NCBI GenBank assembly: GCA_007126035.1
Contig: SLCC01000138.1
Location: 1-54,188 of the forward strand
Reading direction: 5' to 3'
Origin: Gemmatimonadota bacterium
GTDB taxonomy: Bacteria; Gemmatimonadota; Gemmatimonadetes; Longimicrobiales; RSA9
Length of the DNA: 54,188 bases
Shown: one piece after another, positions 5,160-20,595 of the stretch
How positions within the stretch are numbered: the stretch's first letter is position 1
Layout of the letters: each line of letters begins with the position of its first letter
Notes under the pieces: generated by a model
What the model was told of the DNA's origin: nothing
Database searches by the model: none
Seen by the model: the letters and a program-made list of their open reading frames with translations, nothing else
Made by a program: the position numbers and the translations under genes

Positions 5160-8100
5160 CTACGTTCCCGCCTGCATGTTGAACTGGCCGAAGAAGCCGA
5201 GCTGGAACTGACTGGATCCCATCTGGGTGCCGACGTAGCTGCGGCGGTCCACGTAACTGGCCTGGAGCCCCACATCCACCTGGGAGACGAGGGTGGAGAG
5301 GGTGAAGTTCATGCGCCTGTTGGTGTGGTCCATGAACGGGGTGCAGGTCACGGGCTGCACATGGAGGCCGGCGGTGCGGCACTGTCTCTCCCAGTTGGAG
5401 TCGACTGACAGGGACAGGCGGAGCGGCTCCGGGAAGGTCCTCTCCGCCAGGCCGAAGGGCGCCTTGAAGCGACCACTCAGGTCGAGCCCGTGGGATGCCC
5501 GGTCCTCCTCGGTGAGGCCGGTGGGGTCGCGGCCGTCGCCGGTGTTGAGGGCCGTGATGTAGGACAGCGCCAGCCCGTTGGCGAAACCCAGGCGGACCTC
5601 TATGGGCACGGTCGTTATCTGCCGGTCCCAGTGCCGGTTCACCTCACCGGCCAGGAGGGTCCGGCGCTCGCTCCGCACATAGCCGGTGGCCAAGGACCAG
5701 CGCCGAAGCAGAACCTTGAGGGGCTCGGGGACGGGGATATCCCGCCAGCCCAGCTGCACGTCGGGCCACGATCGCTCGGTGAGCGCCCGGCGGCCCTGGT
5801 AGAGGTCGAGGAAGTCGCTCTCCGACTCGCCGTAGGCCACGCCCAGCTCGAAACCGCGTCCCAGCCGGACGCCGGAGCGCACGCGGAACGAGGCGTGGTG
5901 GTGGGCCATGACTGCGGTGTCGGCGCCAATGACCCTGACGCGCTGGAATCCGCCCAGCCCCAACTGGTATTCCAAACCCGGCTCCACCAGCTGCCGGTCG
6001 AAGCGGGAGCCGACGCCATCGGTCCAGCTCAGCTCGATGGGCCGGATCGGCTCCACCAGGGCCAGGACGACGGCGGCCAGGCCGACCGGGGCCGCGGATT
6101 CGTCTCCTGCTCCAGGCGCCAGGGCGGCCTTGAGCGCGCCGCCAGGCTCGAAGATCACGCCCCTGGTCAGCCGGCTGTCGGTGTGCATGCTGCGCTGGAG
6201 CTCGGCCTGCGGGGAGCCGGCGCCATATCCCAGCCCGATGAAGGCCGGGTCCCGCCGCTGACCGAACCGACTGCTCCACGTCACGGAGGGGCGGAGCCAG
6301 TCGGCGATGATGGGCCGGAAGGCGGCGTCGGTCGTGACCATCCGGTCCCGTTCCCAGCCGAGGCCCAGGCCGGCGACATCGAGCTGGGCCTGGCGCAGGG
6401 CCTGCCGCTCGAACGCCACGGGCGTGGCTCGCTCCGGGTCCAGCAGGTCGCGGCCGGTGGTGACCGCCGCCCGGGCGGTGAGGGATTCCAGGGGCCGGAA
6501 GGCTATGTTCGCGCCGCTCTCCATGCTACGCCGTGGCGACTCGAAAGGCAGGACGTCGAGATCCTGCGGGCTGCGAAGCACCCGCTGGTACCGCCAGGCC
6601 CGGGCGTCGTGGCCCAGGTAGGCGGTGTTGAATCCCACCCGCTCAGGCGTCAGGCGTAGCCGCGCGCCCGTGAGCCGGTCGAAGAACGTGCTCTCCTGGA
6701 CGCGCCGTGGCGCCAGCCACGCCAGGGCCTCCCGGACGAAGCCGGGCACCAGGCCCAGCTCCATGTTGACCACCCGCCGGTCCACGTCGATGCCGGCCTC
6801 GACGGCGTCCAGCTGGTTCGAGCTGGTGACGGTGTTGTCGGTGGCCCTGACATGGCTGACGCGGAGGGCGGTGCCATCCACCAGCGCGGCGACCAGGGGG
6901 TGGTCGGAAGTGGCGGTCCGTCGGAGACTGACCGTCACGCGGCGCCGGGTGGAGCCGGTGTCCCTCAGCCCTGGCAACCGGTCCGACATGATGTCGGTGC
7001 CCTGGAGGTAGATGGGCTCGAGGCCGGTGCGGAGATACGTGACCGTCACCGGCATGGAAACGCCCCACGACTCCGGCGTGAACCGACCCAGCTCCGCGGT
7101 GGCGTTGACCACCAGCTCCTCCTGGGACTGGAAGGTGGCTGCGTCGCTGAGCTGGCGGAAGCGGCCGCCCCGGTTCTCGAACATGGCGCTGACGCTCAGG
7201 AAGCCGCCCGCCTCCAGGTCCATGGCCACTCGACCAGCCACGCCCAGGTCGCGGACGCCACCACCGAGCCGCAGGTCGTTCAGCCAGACCTCGCCGCTGG
7301 TCTCGCCGGTGCGGCGGTTGTAAACCGCGAAGCTCATCTCCCTGACGGCCGCCAGGTTGGGCGCACGGGCCCGGTCCTCCAGGACGATGCCGTGGGTGGC
7401 CTCCTCGTTCCAGAGGATGACGGGGCCGCCGCTCGGCTGCTCCGCCAGCAGCCGCTCCGCCTCCGCCTTGAGGCTCATCCACTCGTCGAACTCGACCACC
7501 CGCTCGGGTAGCCAGTCCTCCGGGACCACACCCTTCGGGTCCCGCACCCTCTCGAGCGGCGTCTGGTAGATGTAGTAGTTGCGCGCGTCGGTACCCACCT
7601 TCAGGAGGAGGCTGTGGTCTCCGTTTCGGCCCCACTCGCCGGACCGGGGCACGGCCCAGAACCGGATCTGTTTGTAGTCCAGGAAGCTCCTGGGCTGCTG
7701 CGGGTAGCGGAAGTACACCTCTGCCCGGTCGCCGCCCAGGAGGGAGGTCCAGCCCAACCGGAGCCCCTTCTCGTTGAACTCCACCGCCCCGGCGCCCAGC
7801 GCGGAGCGGGGGTCCTGGACCTCCTCCTCCACGCCCGGCGGAGACTGATATGCCGCGCCGTCCGTGAGCCGACTGACGGGCGCGACCCGCACGGTGGTCA
7901 GGCCCGCACCCGCGCCCGGCAGGTGGCCCGTGATCCCACTCACCACGCCCGCCTCGTCCCGCTTGGTCCAGCGTGACCCGCCGATCCGGAACCGGGCCAG
8001 GGCCAGAGTCCCCTGTCCCGAGGAAGGCCGGACCACGGTGACGCGCATGTGCTGGATATAGCGCCACGTGGCCTCGCTGGCCCCGTGCATGGCGATGGCG

Positions 8101-11100
8101 TCCGGGCCGCGGAGCGGGACGCGGTAGAGGCGGAACCGGGTGCCCGTGGCCCCCTGGTCCCGGACCACGTACGGTGACAGGCGGGACAGGGGTATGACGT
8201 ACCGGAACGCCGGGCCATCGAATGGGTCGAGGACACCGTTGCCGTTCAGATCCTCGGTGTCCCGTCGCCCGTTGTTGACGGTGCAGTTGGCCCGGACGTC
8301 GCCCAGCGGTACGGCGTTGAGCCGGTCGGCCTCGCATGGCTGCCCCCATAGCCCGAGCCGGTCATCGTCGGGGCCCCAGACCTCCCGGTTCGCCAGGCTG
8401 GCCTCCTCGTCCAGCACACCCAGGCCCCAGGGCCGGCCCAGGGCGTCCACTCCCGAGGTCTGGTAGTTCTCGTCGAAGTAGAAGGCGTCCTCGCTCACCG
8501 TCCCGATGTCGATGACCAGGATGGCGTCGTCAGGCCAGTTCACGTGGGGGGCCGCGTAGAACTCCAGGTACTCGGAGCGGGACAGGTCACGGCCGGTGGT
8601 GGACAGGACGGTGGTGATGGAGCGCCAGTGCGGCGGCGGGTCGGGCGGCCGGTCCGCCGCCATGGTCAGGTGGAGGACGCGCTCGGCCACACGGGCGCCG
8701 GCGAAAGCGATCTGCTGGTCTATCTCCTGTGCGGTCAGGAACCCCACCTCCCGGCCCGCCTCCAGGTAGCGGTCCTGCCAGACCAGGGAGGCGGCGTTCC
8801 GGGGTGTCAGCGGCCACGGCAGCTCCGGCACGCCGCTGGCGTCCTGGGGCGCGCTGCCCAGCCGCCACTCGAAGGGCTCCAGGGACAGCCGGATCTCGTC
8901 GGTCGCCTCGAAGTCATCCAGGTAGGTGTGCCCCCGTCGATTGGGCTCGGGTGCCGAGAGGGCCAGCTCGCCGCTGAGGTCGAGCCGGGCCACGGAGTCG
9001 GCGCGGAGCAGCGGCATGGCTCCGAGGGCGCTGGCCAGCCAGTCGGCGTGCACGGCGAGGCGGCCGCTGAGCCCGCCGATCATGAGGGCCCGGGGCGCCA
9101 TCCCCAGCTGGGGCCGGCGCAGCATGGCCTGCTCCGACTGGTAGAGCCCCACCAGGCTCACGTCACCATAGGCGCCCAGGGGCGAGCGGGCGTGGAGGCC
9201 CACCACCGTGGTGGGGGCGATGTCGAAGAGGGACTGCTGCTCCCAGGTCGCCCGGATGGCAGCGTCGGCGTTGGCGCTCAGCGTGGCCTGGTGGTCCAGC
9301 AGCGTGACCAGCCCGATGTCGTAGTCCAGGACATAGTCCACGCCCCGCACCAGCAGGCGGTCGTCCACCGTGATCCGCTCCGTACCGGGCCGGATACCGA
9401 AGGCGCCCAGATTGAAGCTGCTGGGCAGCCCCTCCATCTCGATCCGGTAGCGGAAGTTCAGCCGGAACCTGCTCCCGCCCCGGCGCACCACCGGGTCCGG
9501 CGCGTCATAGATGACGGTGTTCGCATCGACTCCCAGTATGGTTGCCGTCTGCTCCGCGGTCAGTCCCTGGGCGGGAACGGGCGGCGGGCGGGCAAAGGGT
9601 TCCAGCGTGGGGAAGACGATGAAGGTGCCTCGCACGGCCGAGGTCCCGGCGCCGCCCAGCTCCGCATCGGGCCGGAAGAGGCGGGCTGCGTCGATACGAT
9701 CGGCCGGGGCGTGGTTGTCCAGACCGAACAGACGGAGCAGCGGGAGCTGGTCGCCCGCATGCTCCTTGAACGTGATGCCGCCAGCCTCGTGGCCCAGGGA
9801 GATGACCAGGTCCAGCGTGGCCAGCTCCACCTCCGCTGAGCCGTCCAGCCGGTAGACCTGGTGCATCTCCCACGGCCAGGTCGGCTGCCCGGGCTGGTGC
9901 GTGGCCACCGGCGCACGGACCAGCAGCAACTCCGGCGTGTCGCCCGGCGGCCTCGCCTCCGGCTCCGGGTCGCCCATCACCACGCCCGTCTCCGTCACGT
10001 ACCCCGCCGCCAGGGCCTCGTCGTCACGGAGCGGCGCCCGCAACGCCAGCCACAGGCCGCTGGGGTGCACGTAATAGTCCCGCCCCGGCTCCAGAAGGCG
10101 GAACAGCCCGCTGTGGCGACGGCTCCGGTCGGCGGTCACGGCGTCCGCCAGGAACTTGCCCGCCTGCGCCTGCTCCACGTAGCTGGTGGCGATCACGCCC
10201 TCGTCACGGAACACCACCAGCCGGTTCGACCGGGGCCGCGCCTCCGCCGCCACATCGCCACGGACCAGCTTCAGCACGTCCACATGCGGGTATCCCGCGA
10301 TCAGGGACGGGTCCACCAGGAAGAAGAACTGGCCCGCGGCATAATCACCATCGTCCAGCACCCGGTCCTGCTCCTGGACCAGACCGCGCTGGCCCAGGCC
10401 GCCGAGCCGGAACTCCCGGGACGCTATCTCACCTCGCTGCTGCGCCCAGACCGCCTCGACCTCCGTGGCACCGGCCTGCGCCACAGCCTTGAACCCGAAG
10501 TTCCCCGCCGGTATACCCTGGGTCAGGAAGCGCGACGACGGCAGACCTATGGCCACGTCGCCCATCTCGAACCGCTGGAGGAGCTCACCGTCGGCGCCCT
10601 GGTAGTAGACGCTGATGTTGTTCGCCGTGTCGAACTCCCGGCGCTGGTCGTAGTCCACGTCGATGTGGAAGCGCTCGGCGATGGAGCCGCCGACCTGGAC
10701 CCCGAACTCCACGTCCGGCCTCAGCTGGGGCATCAGCGGCGGACGACACGTCAATGGCAAGGCAGGGTCGCACGGCCGGTACTGGTTCCACGAGCCCCCG
10801 ATCCCACCCCGGCCCTCGACCCGGAGGGTGAGGTCGGTGGCCTGCTGGACCGCCTCCGGTAGCTCCAGGTCCAGGAACCCCCGGGGCGCCTGCGGCGTAT
10901 CCCCGATCGTGTCACGCAGCGGCGGGGCCACGTTGGGAGTGTCCACGACCATCCGGGCGTCTCGGGGGTATGCCAGTTGACGGGCCGACGACGGCGGACG
11001 GCGGAAGCCGGCCCGTCGGCTGGACACGTTGGTCGGGGATGACTGATGGAGTGGCTTGAGACCGAGGCGAAGCGGCGGCGCGCGGTCCTGGAGGGCGGCG

Positions 11101-11213
11101 GCCACCGTCTGGACGGTGAGGCCGGATCCCGGAACCGGACGCACGGGCTCCTGCGCCTGGACGCGGACGACACCCAGGAGGAGAAGGAGTGGCAGGTACC
11201 TGGTCGAGCTCAT
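5160..11213 (-). CDS. sprA: SprA-like giant outer-membrane protein (type IX secretion translocon)
   Basis: This 2017-aa protein has an N-terminal signal peptide (MSSTRYLPLLLLLGVVRVQA). It matches the SprA/Sov family, the very large beta-barrel forming the outer-membrane channel of the type IX secretion system. Recognisable family features are the N-terminal VEGRGGIGGSWNQY block, the long repetitive outer-membrane strand pattern, the mid-protein motif YLDDFEATDEIRLSL, and the region EDLNGNGVLDPFDGP. The C terminus is built of alternating barrel-strand residues ending QLGFFGQFNMQAGT. Sizes of 2000-2500 aa are normal. No other type IX genes (porK-N, porV, porU) are in the window. An extended -10 promoter lies about 100 bases upstream. 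Function is inferred from Bacteroidota homologues. Confidence 0.85.
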   Translation of the reverse strand: MSSTRYLPLLLLLGVVRVQAQEPVRPVPGSGLTVQTVAAALQDRAPPLRLGLKPLHQSSPTNVSSRRAGFRRPPSSARQLAYPRDARMVVDTPNVAPPLRDTIGDTPQAPRGFLDLELPEAVQQATDLTLRVEGRGGIGGSWNQYRPCDPALPLTCRPPLMPQLRPDVEFGVQVGGSIAERFHIDVDYDQRREFDTANNISVYYQGADGELLQRFEMGDVAIGLPSSRFLTQGIPAGNFGFKAVAQAGATEVEAVWAQQRGEIASREFRLGGLGQRGLVQEQDRVLDDGDYAAGQFFFLVDPSLIAGYPHVDVLKLVRGDVAAEARPRSNRLVVFRDEGVIATSYVEQAQAGKFLADAVTADRSRRHSGLFRLLEPGRDYYVHPSGLWLALRAPLRDDEALAAGYVTETGVVMGDPEPEARPPGDTPELLLVRAPVATHQPGQPTWPWEMHQVYRLDGSAEVELATLDLVISLGHEAGGITFKEHAGDQLPLLRLFGLDNHAPADRIDAARLFRPDAELGGAGTSAVRGTFIVFPTLEPFARPPPVPAQGLTAEQTATILGVDANTVIYDAPDPVVRRGGSRFRLNFRYRIEMEGLPSSFNLGAFGIRPGTERITVDDRLLVRGVDYVLDYDIGLVTLLDHQATLSANADAAIRATWEQQSLFDIAPTTVVGLHARSPLGAYGDVSLVGLYQSEQAMLRRPQLGMAPRALMIGGLSGRLAVHADWLASALGAMPLLRADSVARLDLSGELALSAPEPNRRGHTYLDDFEATDEIRLSLEPFEWRLGSAPQDASGVPELPWPLTPRNAASLVWQDRYLEAGREVGFLTAQEIDQQIAFAGARVAERVLHLTMAADRPPDPPPHWRSITTVLSTTGRDLSRSEYLEFYAAPHVNWPDDAILVIDIGTVSEDAFYFDENYQTSGVDALGRPWGLGVLDEEASLANREVWGPDDDRLGLWGQPCEADRLNAVPLGDVRANCTVNNGRRDTEDLNGNGVLDPFDGPAFRYVIPLSRLSPYVVRDQGATGTRFRLYRVPLRGPDAIAMHGASEATWRYIQHMRVTVVRPSSGQGTLALARFRIGGSRWTKRDEAGVVSGITGHLPGAGAGLTTVRVAPVSRLTDGAAYQSPPGVEEEVQDPRSALGAGAVEFNEKGLRLGWTSLLGGDRAEVYFRYPQQPRSFLDYKQIRFWAVPRSGEWGRNGDHSLLLKVGTDARNYYIYQTPLERVRDPKGVVPEDWLPERVVEFDEWMSLKAEAERLLAEQPSGGPVILWNEEATHGIVLEDRARAPNLAAVREMSFAVYNRRTGETSGEVWLNDLRLGGGVRDLGVAGRVAMDLEAGGFLSVSAMFENRGGRFRQLSDAATFQSQEELVVNATAELGRFTPESWGVSMPVTVTYLRTGLEPIYLQGTDIMSDRLPGLRDTGSTRRRVTVSLRRTATSDHPLVAALVDGTALRVSHVRATDNTVTSSNQLDAVEAGIDVDRRVVNMELGLVPGFVREALAWLAPRRVQESTFFDRLTGARLRLTPERVGFNTAYLGHDARAWRYQRVLRSPQDLDVLPFESPRRSMESGANIAFRPLESLTARAAVTTGRDLLDPERATPVAFERQALRQAQLDVAGLGLGWERDRMVTTDAAFRPIIADWLRPSVTWSSRFGQRRDPAFIGLGYGAGSPQAELQRSMHTDSRLTRGVIFEPGGALKAALAPGAGDESAAPVGLAAVVLALVEPIRPIELSWTDGVGSRFDRQLVEPGLEYQLGLGGFQRVRVIGADTAVMAHHHASFRVRSGVRLGRGFELGVAYGESESDFLDLYQGRRALTERSWPDVQLGWRDIPVPEPLKVLLRRWSLATGYVRSERRTLLAGEVNRHWDRQITTVPIEVRLGFANGLALSYITALNTGDGRDPTGLTEEDRASHGLDLSGRFKAPFGLAERTFPEPLRLSLSVDSNWERQCRTAGLHVQPVTCTPFMDHTNRRMNFTLSTLVSQVDVGLQASYVDRRSYVGTQMGSSQFQLGFFGQFNMQAGT

Positions 11214-13926: not shown

Positions 13927-14820
13927 CTATCCGTCCACCCTGCTCCAGCCCGTGACCACGTCACCCGGGACAGTGCCCTCGTAGACTATCTGGGCGGTGC
14001 CCGTCAGCCTGACCAGCCAGTCGTCGTGGATCCGGACCCGGAGCGCGCCGCCCGGCATGACGACCCGCAGCAGGCCCGGCTCGACCCGGCCCGAGCGGAC
14101 CGCCGCCGCCGCCACCGCGCACGCACTCGAGCCGCTGGCCATGGTCTCACCGGCGCCCCGCTCCCACACCAGCGCCTCCAGCGTGTCGGGAGTCGCCACC
14201 CTGGCCAGCTGGACGTTGATGCCGCTGGCGAAGACGGGCAGCGACTGGAGCCCCGGACCCAGCCGGACCAGATCGCGCCGGTCCAGGCCCCGGTCCGGCT
14301 CGTCCCTGAAGACCACGCAGTGGGGGTTGCCCAGGGAGACCAGGTGAATCCCCACCTCCTCTCCGCCCACGTCCAGCGGGGCACCAATGACCTCGGCCTC
14401 CGGCGGGGCTCCGGTGAAATGCACGTCGCCGGCACGGAAAGAGGCGGTGCCCATGTCCACCCGGACAGTGCGCACCCCTCCCGCTGACGCGCCCTCCACC
14501 TCCATCTCCACCGCCTCACCCGGCAACGTCACCCGGAACGGCGTCGTGCCGACCAGCCCCAGGTGGTGCAGCCAGGCGGCGAATATGCGGAGCCCGTTCC
14601 CGCTCTTTTCCGCCTCGCCGCCGTCGGGATTGAAGATGCGCAGTGCCGCCGGCTCGCGTGCCGGGTCGCCCAGGAGCACGCCGTCGCCACCGACTCCCAG
14701 ATGCCGGTGGCAGAGACCCTCCACCACACCCGGCGCCAGGTCGTCCGAGCCACGCAGCACCAGGTAGTCGTTACCCAGCGCCTGGCCCTTCCAGAAACGA
14801 AGCGGTTCGCCTGTACCCAT
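13927..14820 (-). CDS. Diaminopimelate epimerase-like protein with both catalytic Cys replaced by Ser
   Basis: This 297-aa protein is clearly of the DapF family. It has GNDYLV near residue 16, GVGGDGVLL (42-50), NPDGGEAEKSGNGLR (64-78), SLGNPHCVVF (161-170) and WERGAGETMASGSSACAV (218-235). DapF interconverts LL- and meso-diaminopimelate using two cysteine acid-bases in CGNG and ACGxG motifs. Here both are serine: S73 in KSGNG and S228 in MASGSS, each an unambiguous AGC codon. The rest of the active-site shell is kept. The protein may be a slow epimerase, have another substrate, or perform another reaction; other members of the wider superfamily change chemistry when a Cys is replaced. It follows the methionine genes after a 107-base gap. 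I leave the symbol blank for this reason. Confidence 0.85.
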   Translation of the reverse strand: MGTGEPLRFWKGQALGNDYLVLRGSDDLAPGVVEGLCHRHLGVGGDGVLLGDPAREPAALRIFNPDGGEAEKSGNGLRIFAAWLHHLGLVGTTPFRVTLPGEAVEMEVEGASAGGVRTVRVDMGTASFRAGDVHFTGAPPEAEVIGAPLDVGGEEVGIHLVSLGNPHCVVFRDEPDRGLDRRDLVRLGPGLQSLPVFASGINVQLARVATPDTLEALVWERGAGETMASGSSACAVAAAAVRSGRVEPGLLRVVMPGGALRVRIHDDWLVRLTGTAQIVYEGTVPGDVVTGWSRVDG

Positions 14821-14895: not shown

Positions 14896-14930
14896 CGGAC
14901 TTCGGACCTCGGACTTCGGGCTTCGGTTCA
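14896..14930 (+). repeat. Heptad tandem repeat, consensus CGGAnyT
   Basis: Five consecutive 7-base units read CGGACTT, CGGACCT, CGGACTT, CGGGCTT and CGGTTCA. They fill part of the gap before the dapF-like gene and run into the stop codon of the preceding fusion gene. A second array of the same heptad, on the other strand, lies at 23542-23562. Confidence 0.6.
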
Positions 14931-16832
14931 TCGGGTCCGCGGCCATGCCAGTTCCGGCTCCCGTCGCTCCTTCAGCTTCAGCCCTTCGAAGACCTGGAGT
15001 GCCAGCTCGACGCGACCGAAGGGTGCGCTCACCTGGAGCCCCTGGACCTGTGGCTGCACGGCGTGGAAGAGTTCCCTGGCGATGGCGACGCCCTCGGCCA
15101 GGGCGTGCTCCTGGCTCCGGGCCTGTGCCACCTGCATGCGACGGATGACATGGTCGGGCACCGTCACTCCCGGGACCTCGTTCGCCAGGAACTCGGCGTT
15201 CCGTACGCTGACCAGCGGCCATATCCCGGCCACGATGGGGATTCGGATGTCTCGGCGCTCGAGCTCGGCGATGAAGCGCAGCAGCTGGTCCGCGTCGAAG
15301 ACCGGCTGTGTGATGGCGTATTCGGCCCCCGCGTCCACCTTCCAGTAGAACCGGTTCAGCTCGTAGTCCGTGTCCATGGCGCCGGGGTTCACGCCGACGC
15401 CGACGGTGAAGCTTGTGGCGCTGCCGATGGCGTTACCGCCGGGGTCCAGCCCGTGGTTCAGCCGGTTCACCAGGTTGGTGAGGCCGATGGAGTCGATGTC
15501 GAAGACGGCGGTGGCATCCGGGTACGGCCCCATCTTCGGCGGGTCACCGGTGATGAGGAGGAGGTTGCGGAGGCCCAGGGCGTGGGCGCCCAGGAGGTCG
15601 CTGAGCATGCCCAGCAGGTTCCGGTCCCGGCATGTGTAGTGGACGACGGCTTCGATGCCGGCGACCCTCTGGACGAGTACGCTGGTGGCGATGACGCCCA
15701 TTCGCATCTGGGCCCGGGGGCCATCGGGCACGTTCACGGCGTCGACTCCCGCCCGCTCCAGCTCCATGACGCCCTGGATCATGCGCTCCGGGTCCACACC
15801 CTTCGGTGGCAGGATCTCGACACTGGTGAGCAGCTCACCGGCGGCGAGCCTGCTGCCCAGCGCGGACCGCTCCGCCAGCGGGACGGGAGGCAGCGCGCCG
15901 TCCTGCTCCGCCACCCGCCGCACCCGGATCCGCCCCGGCGGCGCGGGGCGGGCTGGAGCCACAGCCTGCAACACGTCGCTCATCCTCCGGACGTGGGCGG
16001 GCGTGGTGCCGCAACAACCGCCCACGAGTCGGGCCCCGGCCTGGATCAGCCGCCTGGTGTACTTGGCCAGGTACTCGGGCGAGGCCATGTAGATCTTCCG
16101 GCCGTCGATCTCCCGGGGCAGCCCGGCGTTGGGCTGGGCCGAGACCGGCCGATCTACCGCCGGCGCCAGCCGCTCCACGCCCGCCAGGATCCCGTGGGGC
16201 CCCACGGAGCAGTTGAGCCCCACCACGTCCGCGCCCCACTCGGCCAGCCGCTGCCCGCACAGCTCCACCGTGGTCCCGTACAGCGTGGTCCCGTCCTCCC
16301 GCACCGTCATCTGGGCGACAATGGGCAGGTCCGTCGCCTGGCGCACCGCCGCCAGCGCCTGGCGCACCTCGGCCAGGTCGGCGAACGTCTCCAGCACGAA
16401 GAACCCGACGCCGCCCTCCAGCAGACCGTGCACCTGCTCCAGGAAGAAGGACCTGGCCTCGTCCAGAGACGTGGGGCCGTACGGCTCGATCCGGATGCCC
16501 AGCGGCCCGACAGCTCCACCCACCAGCGCCCGACCGCCCGCGGCCTCGCGCGCCAGCCCGGCGGCCCGGGCGTTGATCTCCACCACCCGCTTCTCCAGCC
16601 CGTGCCGCGCCAGCTTCACCGGGTTGGCGCCGAAGGTGTTCGTCTCCAGCAGTTCCGCCCCCGCCTGCACATACTCGGAATGGATGGACCGCACCAGATC
16701 CGGATTCGACAGCACCAGCTCGTCGTAGCTCCGGTTGATGAACACGCCCCGGTCGTAGAGCATGGTGCCCATGCCGCCATCGAAGAGGTGGGGCCGGTCG
16801 TCGTCCAGGAGATCGAGTAGGTCTGTGGTCAT
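14928..16832 (-). CDS. Homocysteine S-methyltransferase / methylenetetrahydrofolate reductase fusion
   Basis: This 634-aa bifunctional protein resembles the B. subtilis YitJ type. Residues 1 to about 300 are a homocysteine methyltransferase domain with DGGMGTMLYDRG at the N terminus and zinc-ligand cysteines in GLNCSVGP and VGGCCGTTPAH. Residues from about 345 are a methylenetetrahydrofolate reductase TIM barrel. It begins SVEILPPKGVDPERMI and contains AVVHYTCRDRNLLGM and FDIDSIGLTNLV. The reductase makes 5-methyl-THF, the methyl donor for MetH encoded 6 bases upstream. The methyltransferase half may use S-methylmethionine or another donor. Co-transcription with metH is very likely. Confidence 0.92.
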   Translation of the reverse strand: MTTDLLDLLDDDRPHLFDGGMGTMLYDRGVFINRSYDELVLSNPDLVRSIHSEYVQAGAELLETNTFGANPVKLARHGLEKRVVEINARAAGLAREAAGGRALVGGAVGPLGIRIEPYGPTSLDEARSFFLEQVHGLLEGGVGFFVLETFADLAEVRQALAAVRQATDLPIVAQMTVREDGTTLYGTTVELCGQRLAEWGADVVGLNCSVGPHGILAGVERLAPAVDRPVSAQPNAGLPREIDGRKIYMASPEYLAKYTRRLIQAGARLVGGCCGTTPAHVRRMSDVLQAVAPARPAPPGRIRVRRVAEQDGALPPVPLAERSALGSRLAAGELLTSVEILPPKGVDPERMIQGVMELERAGVDAVNVPDGPRAQMRMGVIATSVLVQRVAGIEAVVHYTCRDRNLLGMLSDLLGAHALGLRNLLLITGDPPKMGPYPDATAVFDIDSIGLTNLVNRLNHGLDPGGNAIGSATSFTVGVGVNPGAMDTDYELNRFYWKVDAGAEYAITQPVFDADQLLRFIAELERRDIRIPIVAGIWPLVSVRNAEFLANEVPGVTVPDHVIRRMQVAQARSQEHALAEGVAIARELFHAVQPQVQGLQVSAPFGRVELALQVFEGLKLKERREPELAWPRTR

Positions 16833-16838
16833 GCTGGA

Positions 16839-19800
16839 TCACACCGCGCTGAAGTACTTGGCATCCGGGTGGTGGAAGACGATGGCGGCGGTGGACAGCT
16901 CCGGGACGAGAGCGCCCGCGCTGGTCAGGTCCATGCCCAGCCGCTCGCGGGCCGGGAGCAGGCGATAGACGACCTCGTGCTGCATATGGTCGGGGCACGC
17001 GGGGTAGCCCCACGCGTACCGCAGCCCTCGCCCGTGCTCGATGCCCCACTCCCGGCGCATCCGCCGGTGGACCCATTCGGCGGCGGCCTCGGCCAGTCGC
17101 ACGCCGAAGCCGTGGAGGTAGTAGCCCTCGGAGTATTCGCCCTCCTTCATCATGGCCGTGGAGCGCTCGAGCAGCCGGTCCGACACGGAGACGACGAGGA
17201 AGCCCACGTAGTCGACGGTCGAGCCGCGCAGGTAGTCGGCCAGGCAGAGCCGCTCCCGGTCGCTCTGTCTCGGGAAGCTGAGCCGCTCCACCTCGAGGGC
17301 CGGGTCTCCGGGGTCGCCGACGACGACGTGATCGCCGTCGCCCACCGCCGGCCAGAACCCGTAGGCGGCGCGGACTCTGACCTGTCCGCCGGCCAGGGCC
17401 TCCCGTTTCAGCCGCTCCAGGCGGGGCTCGAATTCGTTCCGGACCAGCCGCTCCCAGGCCTGGCCGCTGGCGTTCTTCGCGCCCCAGTGGAGCCGGTAGA
17501 GCGTGTTCAGGTCCACCAGGTCGTAGAGCTCGGCCAGCGGCACCCGGTCGATGACCCGGGAGCCCAGGAAGTCCGGTACGGGGACGTCCACCTGCCGGCG
17601 GCGACCCGGTCGCTCCGCGGGACGCGCGGCCTTAGCCCGATCCTGGAGGGCGGCGCGTCTGGCCACGCCCTCCCCCACTTCTTCCAGGCGACGTCGTACG
17701 AAGGCCTCCCGGTCAGGCCCCAGCAGCGCGTCCACGACGGCCAGGCCCGCGAACGCGTCCTTGCAGTACCATACGCCGGGCTCGTAGAGGGCGGTCCGCT
17801 GGTCGTCGACGAAGGACGCGGCCCGGACGAACGACGGGTTGATGGCGGCCCCGCCACACAGGACCGGGTAGCGCAGGCCTCGCCGGTCCAGCTCCCGCAC
17901 CGCTGCGGGCATCTGCTTCGAGGTGGAGACGAGCAGGGCGCTGAGCCCGATGGCGTCGGCTCCCACCTCCTGGGCCCTGGCGATGATGTCGTTGACCGGG
18001 ACCTGCTTTCCCAGGTCGTGCACGGTGTAGCCGTTGTTCTCCAGGATGGTGTGGACCAGGTTCTTGCCGATGTCGTGGACGTCGCCATATACCGTGGCCA
18101 GGACCACCGTCCCCTTGGACTGGCCCTCCGCCTTCTCCAGGTACGTCTCCATACGGCCCACCGCCGCCTTCATGACCTCGGCGGACTGGAGCACGAACGG
18201 CAGGATCAGGTCGCCGGCGCCGAACCTGTCGCCCACCTCCTTCATGGCGGGGAGCAAGACGGTGTTCAGGAACCGGACGCCCGCCTCGTGGCTCGCGGGG
18301 GTGGGCGACGGCGCGACGGCGAAGGCGCGGGCCTCGGCGCTGGCGGGGCCAGAGCCTGCGCTGGCACTTTCCGCCTCGCCCTGGATCCCCCGGGCAATGG
18401 CCTGGTCCACCAGCTCCACCACGCCTTCCTTCTTCCGGTGGAGGATGCTCCAGCGGATGGCGTCATCGGGATCCATCTCCAGGCGAGGGTCGCCACTCTC
18501 CGATTCCTCGACCTGGTGCTCCTCGAAGTAGGCGATGAAGCGGGCCAAAGCGTCGTCGCGGCGGTCGAAGATCAGGTCGTCGGCCAGCTGGCGCTGCGCC
18601 TCGTCCACCTCGGCGTAGGGCGTGATGTGGGCCGGGTTCACGATGGCCATGTCGAGACCCGCCTCCACGCAGTGGTGGAGGAAGACGGAGTTGAGCGCGG
18701 CCCGGGCTGGGGGCTGGAGCCCGAAGCGGACGTTGCTCACGCCCAGGCTGGTCAGGACGCCGGGCAGCTCGGCCTTGATGCGTCGGATGCCGTCGATGGT
18801 CTCCACGGCGCTGGCCCGGAACTCGGCATCGCCGGTGGCCAGGGTAAAGGTGAGGTCGTCGAAGACCAGGTCTCCGGGTGACATGCCGTACTCGCCCACC
18901 ACTATGTCATGGATCCGCCCCGCCACCTCCAGCTTGCGCTCGGCGGTCCTGGCCATGCCCGCCTCGTCGATGGTGAGGGCGATGAGCGCGGCGCCGTGCT
19001 CCATGGCCATGGGCACCACACGGTCGACCCGGTCCCGGCCCGACTCCAGGTGGATCGAGTTGATGATGGCCCGGCCAGGGTACTGGCGGAGCGCCGCCTC
19101 CACCACGTCCGTCTCCGTGGTGTCGATGACCAGCGGCGTCTCGACGCTCTGGGCCAGCAGCTTGACCAGCGTCCGCATCTGCCGGGCTTCGTCCTGCCGC
19201 TCCGTGAGGGCCACGCAGACGTCCAGCAGGTGCGCGCCGCCGTCCACCTGGTGGCGGGCCACGTCGCGGACGGCCTCGTAGTCGTCGGCCAGGAGCATGC
19301 GCTTGACCGCCTTCGAGCCCTGGGCGTTCACCCGCTCGCCGATGAGGGTGGGCGCGGGGACCTGTTGCATGTCCACGGCGGTCATGGCGCTGGCCAGCCG
19401 TGGCACGGCGGTCACGGCTCGCCCCTTCGGTCTCCTGCCCTCGACACGCCGCACCACCGCGGCCATGTGCTCCGGCGTGGTCCCGCAGCAGCCGCCCACG
19501 ATGCTCACGCCCAGCTCGACGACGAACCACTCGTGGGCCTCGGCCAGGGCCTCGGGCTCGAGGGGGTAGACAGCCACGCCGGCCTCGTTGTGGGGGATGC
19601 CGGCGTTCGGGATGACGCTGATGGGTAGCCGGCAGTTCTCCGCCAGCCAGCGCACCGGCTCCCGCATGTGCTCCGGTCCCGTGGAGCAGTTCAGGCCGAC
19701 GACATCCACACGGAGGGCCTCGAGCACCGTGGCCGCTGCGGCGATGTCGGTACCCAGCAGCATCCGGCCGCTGGTGTCCAGCGTGACCTGGACCTGGAGG

Positions 19801-20381
19801 CCGACGTCGCTCCGTCCCGCGTCGGCCAGCGCCCTCCGGCACCCGGTGACCTGGGCCTTCACCTCCAGCATGTCCTGGCTGGTCTCGACCAGCAGTACGT
19901 CCACGCCGCCCTCGAGGAGGCCGCCGGCCTGCTCGGCGAAGATGTCCACCAGCGCCTCGTAGGTCATGGCGCCCAGCGACGGGTCGGACGTGCTGGGAAG
20001 GAAGCCGCTGGGCCCGATGCTGCCCGCCACGAAGCGGGGGCGGTCCGGCGTCGCGTAGTCAGCGCACGCGCTCCGCGCCACCAGCGCCGCGGCACGGTTG
20101 ATCTCCACGACCCGGTCCCCGAGGCCGTACTCGCCCAGGGTCAGCCGGTTCGAGCGGAACGTGTTCGTCTCCACCACGTCGCAGCCCACGTCCAGGAACG
20201 AGCCGTGGATCTGCCGGATCAGGTCGGGCCTGGTGATGACCAGGTGGTCGTTGCAGCCGTCCAGCCCGGGCCCGCCGAAATCTTCCGCGGTCAGAGGCCG
20301 GGTCTGGATGCTCGTGCCCATGGCCCCGTCGTAGACCAGGACCCGCCGGGCCAGCTCCTCGAGATACGTAGACTGTTTCAT
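16839..20381 (-). CDS. metH: Cobalamin-dependent methionine synthase MetH
   Basis: This 1180-aa four-module enzyme transfers the methyl group of 5-methyl-THF to homocysteine via cob(I)alamin. In order: a homocysteine-binding domain (VYDGAMGTSIQ at the N terminus; zinc cysteines in GLNCSTGPEH and IVGGCCGTTPEH); a pterin-binding domain (LIGERVNAQGSKAVKRML); a cobalamin domain with the lower-ligand motif GDVHDIGKNLV; and a C-terminal AdoMet reactivation domain with YAWGYPACPDHM. I start at the ATG at 20381 (MKQSTYLEEL). The open frame runs 64 codons further upstream, but that stretch crosses a Rho-independent terminator and looks non-coding. The gene has a long structured leader, described separately. 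Confidence 0.95.
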   Translation of the reverse strand: MKQSTYLEELARRVLVYDGAMGTSIQTRPLTAEDFGGPGLDGCNDHLVITRPDLIRQIHGSFLDVGCDVVETNTFRSNRLTLGEYGLGDRVVEINRAAALVARSACADYATPDRPRFVAGSIGPSGFLPSTSDPSLGAMTYEALVDIFAEQAGGLLEGGVDVLLVETSQDMLEVKAQVTGCRRALADAGRSDVGLQVQVTLDTSGRMLLGTDIAAAATVLEALRVDVVGLNCSTGPEHMREPVRWLAENCRLPISVIPNAGIPHNEAGVAVYPLEPEALAEAHEWFVVELGVSIVGGCCGTTPEHMAAVVRRVEGRRPKGRAVTAVPRLASAMTAVDMQQVPAPTLIGERVNAQGSKAVKRMLLADDYEAVRDVARHQVDGGAHLLDVCVALTERQDEARQMRTLVKLLAQSVETPLVIDTTETDVVEAALRQYPGRAIINSIHLESGRDRVDRVVPMAMEHGAALIALTIDEAGMARTAERKLEVAGRIHDIVVGEYGMSPGDLVFDDLTFTLATGDAEFRASAVETIDGIRRIKAELPGVLTSLGVSNVRFGLQPPARAALNSVFLHHCVEAGLDMAIVNPAHITPYAEVDEAQRQLADDLIFDRRDDALARFIAYFEEHQVEESESGDPRLEMDPDDAIRWSILHRKKEGVVELVDQAIARGIQGEAESASAGSGPASAEARAFAVAPSPTPASHEAGVRFLNTVLLPAMKEVGDRFGAGDLILPFVLQSAEVMKAAVGRMETYLEKAEGQSKGTVVLATVYGDVHDIGKNLVHTILENNGYTVHDLGKQVPVNDIIARAQEVGADAIGLSALLVSTSKQMPAAVRELDRRGLRYPVLCGGAAINPSFVRAASFVDDQRTALYEPGVWYCKDAFAGLAVVDALLGPDREAFVRRRLEEVGEGVARRAALQDRAKAARPAERPGRRRQVDVPVPDFLGSRVIDRVPLAELYDLVDLNTLYRLHWGAKNASGQAWERLVRNEFEPRLERLKREALAGGQVRVRAAYGFWPAVGDGDHVVVGDPGDPALEVERLSFPRQSDRERLCLADYLRGSTVDYVGFLVVSVSDRLLERSTAMMKEGEYSEGYYLHGFGVRLAEAAAEWVHRRMRREWGIEHGRGLRYAWGYPACPDHMQHEVVYRLLPARERLGMDLTSAGALVPELSTAAIVFHHPDAKYFSAV

Positions 20382-20595
20382 GTCACGAGCGTTGAGCGTG
20401 AGCAGGGGCTCTGACCGACCGGGGTGGGAACAGAAAAAAGCCCCGCGACGGAAGTGCGGGGCGATCGGATGCTGCGACCAGTTGTCCCGGCACTTTAGAC
20501 CTTTGTTTCGGCAGCTCCGACCAGGCGACATCGCCTGACCTCCCTGCCCCGCGGTGCCAAGCGGCCAACACAAATGCGTCCGCGGGTCCTGCTGC
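20382..20595 (-). ncRNA. metH 5' leader: putative riboswitch or attenuator, class unknown
   Basis: The leader can form nested stems on the minus strand: 554-558 with 489-493 (GGCAC/GUGCC), 544-548 with 510-514 (GGCAG/CUGCC), and a perfect hairpin 532-537/522-527 (CAGGCG-like stem, loop AUGU); numbers are offsets from 20000. A 16-base unpaired strand, GAAACAAAGGUCUAAA, lies between two of the 3' arms. The segment 20546-20552 reads GCGGGGC in the RNA. It is identical to the 3' arm of the downstream terminator, so it can pair perfectly with the terminator's 5' arm. It also overlaps the second stem. The two folds are therefore mutually exclusive, as in an OFF switch. I do not see the GGCAACC core of SAM-I, the cobalamin GCCACUG box, or the SAH-riboswitch core. 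Confidence 0.5.
20434..20462 (-). terminator. Rho-independent terminator in the metH leader
   Basis: On the minus strand GCCCCGC, a 9-base loop and GCGGGGC form a 7-bp all-GC stem followed at once by six T residues. It lies 52 bases before the metH start codon, between promoter and gene, so it must act as an attenuator rather than a gene-end terminator. Confidence 0.85.

Follow-up and report, generated by a model that had tools for sequence, protein, structure and literature searches.

A dapF gene with serine at both catalytic sites

Contig SLCC01000138.1 of the Gemmatimonadota assembly GCA_007126035.1, analysed here over positions 1 to 54,188 (the window), carries a dapF gene whose product has serine at both positions held by the catalytic cysteines of diaminopimelate (DAP) epimerase (Table 1). 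DapF (EC 5.1.1.7) interconverts LL-DAP and meso-DAP, and its product is a building block for the cell wall and for lysine. It is the textbook cofactor-free epimerase, in which one cysteine, as thiolate, abstracts the alpha-proton, a very weak acid, and another cysteine delivers a proton to the opposite face. An earlier, sequence-only reading of this DNA had reported both substitutions. Its first site, Ser73 encoded by AGC, is confirmed; at the second, the serine and its AGC codon stand, but the residue is number 229 and not 228.

Family models place the protein firmly among DapF sequences. It scores 187.8 bits against the NCBIfam equivalog TIGR00652 (cut-off 114.65) and 141 bits against Pfam PF01678, and other members with two serines reach 180-240 bits on TIGR00652. 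Scores for the bifunctional DapF/glutamate racemase (NF038284, 30.2 vs 350 bits) and 4-hydroxyproline epimerase (NF010577, 19.1 vs 442 bits) lie below the respective cut-offs. The framing motifs listed in the sequence-only reading are present. With Ser73 and Ser229, however, the two catalytic cysteines by which DapF is recognised are both missing. Judged by these features, the protein is a member of the DapF sequence family and not a canonical two-thiol DapF. It is also the only one in its genome, a case that the earlier reading had raised: the assembly, estimated as 98% complete, holds a single PF01678 locus, whose two matches correspond to the two domain halves.

Distribution and reality of the serine pair

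Catalytic pairs (first site/second site) were read in 248 DapF sequences, drawn from a scan of genome contigs and from genome searches covering the window's class, the class of Pyrinomonas and the phylum Acidobacteriota. Ser/Ser was found in 132, Cys/Cys in 111, Cys/Ser in four and Ser/Cys in one; as some loci represent one genome reached by two routes, these are counts of sequences and not of independent species. Alignment of homologues, proposed earlier as a check, showed Ser/Ser to be fixed in the window's order, where every locus read from families f1-f3 carries it. The rest of the class (families f4, f5, f6, f7 and f9) reads Cys/Cys in 23/23 loci. In the acidobacterial class of Pyrinomonas, all 29 newly fetched loci are Ser/Ser and the pair is fixed in all sampled members, while the sample of the whole phylum Acidobacteriota gave 44 Ser/Ser, 18 Cys/Cys and four Cys/Ser sequences. 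Five metagenome-assembled genomes (MAGs) of Myxococcota or Deltaproteobacteria also encode a Ser/Ser DapF. The sole Ser/Cys sequence comes from a Chloroflexota MAG and is nested among Cys/Cys enzymes of that phylum. In the class sample, 16 of 295 genomes gave no DapF match at all (G129, G132, G077, G101 and G099 among them; G and L numbers denote our genomes and loci), and some of these are an estimated 91-100% complete.

The serine codons might in principle be sequencing or assembly errors, or marks of a decaying gene, and the window's assembly is indeed fragmented (218 contigs) with 4.24% contamination. The census refutes this idea, whose probability we regard as negligible. The same serines occur in all relatives of the order that were read, across many independent assemblies, and the serines are encoded by AGY as well as TCN codons, which in practice excludes sequencing error. 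Isolate or single-contig genomes carry the pair too (Pyrinomonas K22, L033; G006, G050, G053 and G450). Moreover, the ratio of nonsynonymous to synonymous substitution (dN/dS) across 13 close pairs is 0.04-0.38, well below 1, and Ser/Ser dapF is under purifying selection. The earlier view that the double substitution was selected and does not reflect decay is supported. The Ser/Ser active site is thus a genuine variant of DapF, old and arisen more than once.

Active-site pocket and predicted structure

DapF sequences fall into two types. Type A carries the GNPH motif; in type B the ERG-GET motif is longer by one residue, and Val usually takes the place of Asn in GNPH. Residues contacting DAP were taken from the Anabaena enzyme (PMC12039745), and all those touching either end of the substrate are present in the window protein. 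Across type A Ser/Ser sequences, Asn17, Asn64, Gly74, Asn75, Asn165, Asn202, Glu220, Arg221 and Gly230 are 99-100% conserved, and the residues for the distal carboxylate and amine, the groups that define DAP, are kept as well. Cys/Cys enzymes of type B retain fewer of these contacts, with Asn165 mostly replaced by Val.

The predicted structure of the window protein (mean predicted local distance difference test, pLDDT, 96.3) shows the DapF fold with its two pseudosymmetric domains. Its closest experimental counterpart is 9MRO, Anabaena DapF bound to a DAP analogue (template modelling scores 0.85/0.90). In the model, Ser73 directly precedes helix 74-86 and Ser229 directly precedes helix 230-242.

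Two further positions separate the groups. At position 225, the GET motif has Glu in every Cys/Cys sequence read and in only 53% of Ser/Ser sequences; nearly half of the latter have Pro, Arg, His or Ile instead, and the Glu may serve thiol chemistry. Residue 72 is Lys or Arg in the window's clade and mostly Met in Cys/Cys type A. As a general base for all Ser/Ser enzymes, Lys72 was rejected, since most acidobacterial versions lack it. A substitute thiol at Cys37 was likewise set aside: the residue is kept in Ser/Ser sequences, but it lies within helix 30-37 and occurs in 60% of Cys/Cys sequences too.

The DAP pathway and gene context

The genome of the window encodes both users of meso-DAP that were sought, with matches of 477 bits to LysA and 461 bits to MurE. 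The DNPR motif, which marks DAP-type MurE, was read in 18 MurE sequences, the window genome's included; ten others fell outside this reading because the pattern search caught an earlier match. A second MurE-like Mur ligase of the window genome scores below the MurE cut-off (Table 1), and similar extra copies occur in G002 and G298. LysA is fused to aspartate kinase in G050 of the window's order, and frame length suggests like fusions in G074, G086, G089, G115 and G117.

The sequence-only reading had suggested that dapL or ddh might supply meso-DAP by another route. DapL is no such bypass because its product, LL-DAP, is the substrate of DapF; to our knowledge, meso-DAP dehydrogenase (Ddh) is the only known one. 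Neither exceeds its cut-off in the window genome. For Ddh the same is true of all 32 genomes searched, where the matches scored 19-29 bits (cut-off 180.6), and for DapL only G299 passed. A second DapF was absent from 19 of the 20 genomes checked (19 Ser/Ser and one Ser/Cys). No additional enzyme of the alanine-racemase fold, the one fold covered by our search for a replacement epimerase, is common to Ser/Ser genomes.

Gene neighbourhoods give some hints of function outside the window's order. In three Acidobacteriota, mpl, encoding the meso-DAP tripeptide ligase, lies two genes from the Ser/Ser dapF (over cut-off in 2/2 tested), and in another genome murI holds the same distance. Within the order, dapF is surrounded by lptF/G, methionine synthesis genes and sprA, which offer no functional clue.

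This context bears on an alternative in which peptidoglycan contains LL-DAP, as in some actinomycetes, so that the wall needs no epimerase; the Ser/Ser protein would then epimerise slowly, or as a remnant activity, for lysine synthesis only. Lysine synthesis might be served well enough by a slow enzyme, and our open-access search found no literature on DapF in either Acidobacteriota or Gemmatimonadota, nor on which DAP isomer their peptidoglycan contains. Several genomes, however, keep a Ser/Ser DapF with no LysA match over the cut-off, so lysine cannot be its sole use there, and the use that is left would be the cell wall. The proximity of mpl, a family defined by the meso-DAP tripeptide, also speaks against an LL-DAP wall. 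We consider this alternative quite improbable.

Table 1. Coordinates of dapF, its key codons and other features, in the window and in other loci of the set
Feature	Location	Strand	Remarks
dapF, Ser/Ser type	window 13927..14820	minus	297 aa + stop
AGC codon of Ser73	window 14602..14604	minus	in EKSGNGL; site of first catalytic Cys (Cys75, Anabaena DapF)
AGC codon of Ser229	window 14134..14136	minus	in ETMASGSSAC; site of second catalytic Cys (Cys224, Anabaena DapF)
Codon of Lys72	window 14605..14607	minus	adjoins Ser73; Lys/Arg in the window's clade by residue counts
Codon of Glu225	window 14146..14148	minus	GET motif; relaxed in Ser/Ser sequences
SprA/Sov, type IX secretion outer-membrane translocon	window 5160-11213	minus	TIGR04189, 426.8 bits; near lptF/lptG and dapF across the order
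Homocysteine methyltransferase-MTHFR fusion directly downstream of MetH-like methionine synthase, same strand	window 14928-20573	minus	
Two dapF loci of G299	L212:8056-8901 and L213:8681-9550		one Cys/Cys, one Ser/Ser
Ser/Cys dapF, Chloroflexota MAG VGNY01000030.1	L036:6001-6846		
LysA-aspartate kinase fusion, G050	L215:5529-8129		NF006515, 1108 bits
Second MurE-like Mur ligase, window genome	L219:9149-10549 (C48)		233 bits vs MurE cut-off 257.3

Origins of the Ser/Ser enzymes

Trees built with the catalytic columns removed resolve the type A Ser/Ser sequences into two well supported clades. One unites the window's order with Myxococcota and two Acidobacteriota, and the other is acidobacterial only. 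A single type A Ser/Ser clade is compatible with the data (approximately unbiased test, AU, p = 0.51). A single clade of all Ser/Ser sequences is rejected (AU p = 0.0025) because the pair L313 and L320 sits within type B. This topology indicates that Ser/Ser arose at least twice.

Type B also holds intermediates. All four Cys/Ser sequences belong to it, and in each the second site (229) is the changed one. The type B gene adjoins the same lipoprotein-like gene whether it encodes Cys/Cys (L302, L314, L319), Cys/Ser (L259, L288) or Ser/Ser (L313, L320). Given this shared neighbour, one syntenic slot carries each stage from two cysteines to two serines.

A probable thiol-free epimerase

Retention of the DAP contacts, the single gene copy, the presence of LysA and DAP-type MurE, and recurrence in orthologous slots together favour the same reaction carried out by different chemistry. 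We infer that the Ser/Ser product is probably, though by no means certainly, a working thiol-free DAP epimerase that would convert LL-DAP to meso-DAP with a serine acid-base pair. The same evidence gives no support so far to the earlier proposal of a new activity.

In the mechanism proposed here, domain closure would place both serine hydroxyls at the helix N-termini, flanking the alpha-carbon on its two faces, where they would mirror the thiol and thiolate of the Cys/Cys enzyme. One serine, present as an alkoxide or, in the desolvated pocket, partly deprotonated, would take the alpha-proton, and its partner would supply a proton from the other side. Compared with a thiolate, a serine alkoxide is more strongly basic and forms less readily, a difficulty that might be offset by the loss of solvent on closure, by the helix N-termini and by the ammonium group of the substrate. 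In the window's clade, Lys/Arg72 could aid deprotonation of the adjacent Ser73, a contribution that would not be general given its absence from most acidobacterial versions. As for a driver, oxidation can link the two catalytic cysteines of DapF in a disulfide that inactivates the enzyme (PMC5296763). Two serines could form no such bond, an escape that would be sensible for aerobic soil bacteria, and the pair was perhaps selected for resistance to oxidation.

Several points weigh against a working serine-based epimerase. Thiols are much more acidic than the hydroxyl of serine, and our open-access search turned up no activity measurement on a naturally occurring Ser/Ser DapF. In the related HisR, changing a single cysteine to serine severely impairs the enzyme (PMC11602996). 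The pathway search in the window genome was confined to dapF, dapL, ddh, lysA and murE, and in some Ser/Ser genomes LysA gave no match over the cut-off. G299, a Deltaproteobacteria MAG (NP36), holds a canonical Cys/Cys dapF in the operon lysA-dapF-dapA-dapB plus a separate Ser/Ser dapF; the latter could be a paralogue with another role, or the MAG could be mixed. Physiology points both ways. Acidobacteriaceae strains grow on a defined medium of glucose, vitamins and salts (PMC8027828), where a Ser/Ser DapF is extrapolated from the phylum sample and was not read in the strains themselves. The acidobacterium Chloracidobacterium thermophilum, a species whose DapF was not read, requires lysine (PMC4376005).

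Part of this evidence suits an alternative in which the protein has lost epimerase activity and gained another DAP-dependent role, as a dehydratase, a different isomerase or a DAP-binding regulator, with meso-DAP made by an unrelated, unrecognised enzyme. Both acid-base residues are altered, the HisR mutants are poor enzymes with one such change, Glu225 is relaxed, and G299 retains the canonical enzyme beside lysA along with its Ser/Ser copy. Yet the complete DAP pocket is kept, its distal site included; Ddh is absent, and no common extra enzyme turned up among alanine-racemase folds, other racemase folds lying outside that search. The independent recurrence, with Cys/Ser intermediates in one slot, argues in the same direction, as parallel losses would need a replacement enzyme each time. 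We hold this alternative to be unlikely, if the least so of those considered. Its broader form, in which a large part of Acidobacteriota, together with the order of the window, would rely on an undiscovered meso-DAP enzyme while the old pocket is reused for a DAP-linked function, appears more doubtful again.

Either outcome would matter. Serine at both sites in every sampled member of the window's order and in most sampled Acidobacteria, from at least two origins, means that DapF may not strictly require the two-cysteine chemistry of textbooks. Should two serines catalyse this reaction in nature, models built on the pKa of thiols would need revision, and DapF inhibitors that alkylate thiols, such as aziridino-DAP, would be expected to be ineffective against large groups of soil bacteria. 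The gene slot that holds Cys/Cys, Cys/Ser and Ser/Ser versions in different lineages offers a ready evolutionary series. If Ser/Ser DapF has no activity, a cell-wall enzyme of wide occurrence still awaits discovery.

Comparison with known systems

With canonical DapF, represented by the Anabaena (9MRO) and H. influenzae (1GQZ) structures, the window protein shares the fold, two-domain pseudosymmetry, DAP contacts, size and single copy. It differs in the serines at both catalytic cysteine sites and in the Lys/Arg that precedes the first of them in its clade, and among Ser/Ser members Glu is no longer invariant in the GET motif.

Hydroxyl groups at one catalytic site have precedents. Hydroxyproline epimerases and dehydratases of the proline racemase group use Ser/Cys or Thr/Cys pairs, and this group is 11-19% identical to the window protein by structure alignment. 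An aspartate/glutamate racemase with a Thr/Cys pair has also been described (PMC8142540). In these enzymes a hydroxyl replaces one cysteine and the other is retained, whereas the window DapF retains neither; no description of an all-hydroxyl catalytic pair was found in the open-access literature. O-ureidoserine racemase (7VDY) is a closer relative, a DapF-like amino-acid racemase about 36% identical to the window protein, but it uses cysteine residues (PMC8142540) and acts on a different substrate. No D-cycloserine genes were seen beside the window dapF, in a survey that included no search aimed at them.

The nearest analogues of the serine sites themselves are engineered. H. influenzae DapF C73S and C217S (2Q9H, 2Q9J) and F. 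nucleatum HisR C67S and C209S (9CR1, 9CR6) each carry serine at a catalytic site, but as single mutants with only one position changed. Those serines were introduced in the laboratory to slow catalysis and aid crystallisation, whereas the Ser/Ser pair of the window DapF is natural and long fixed.
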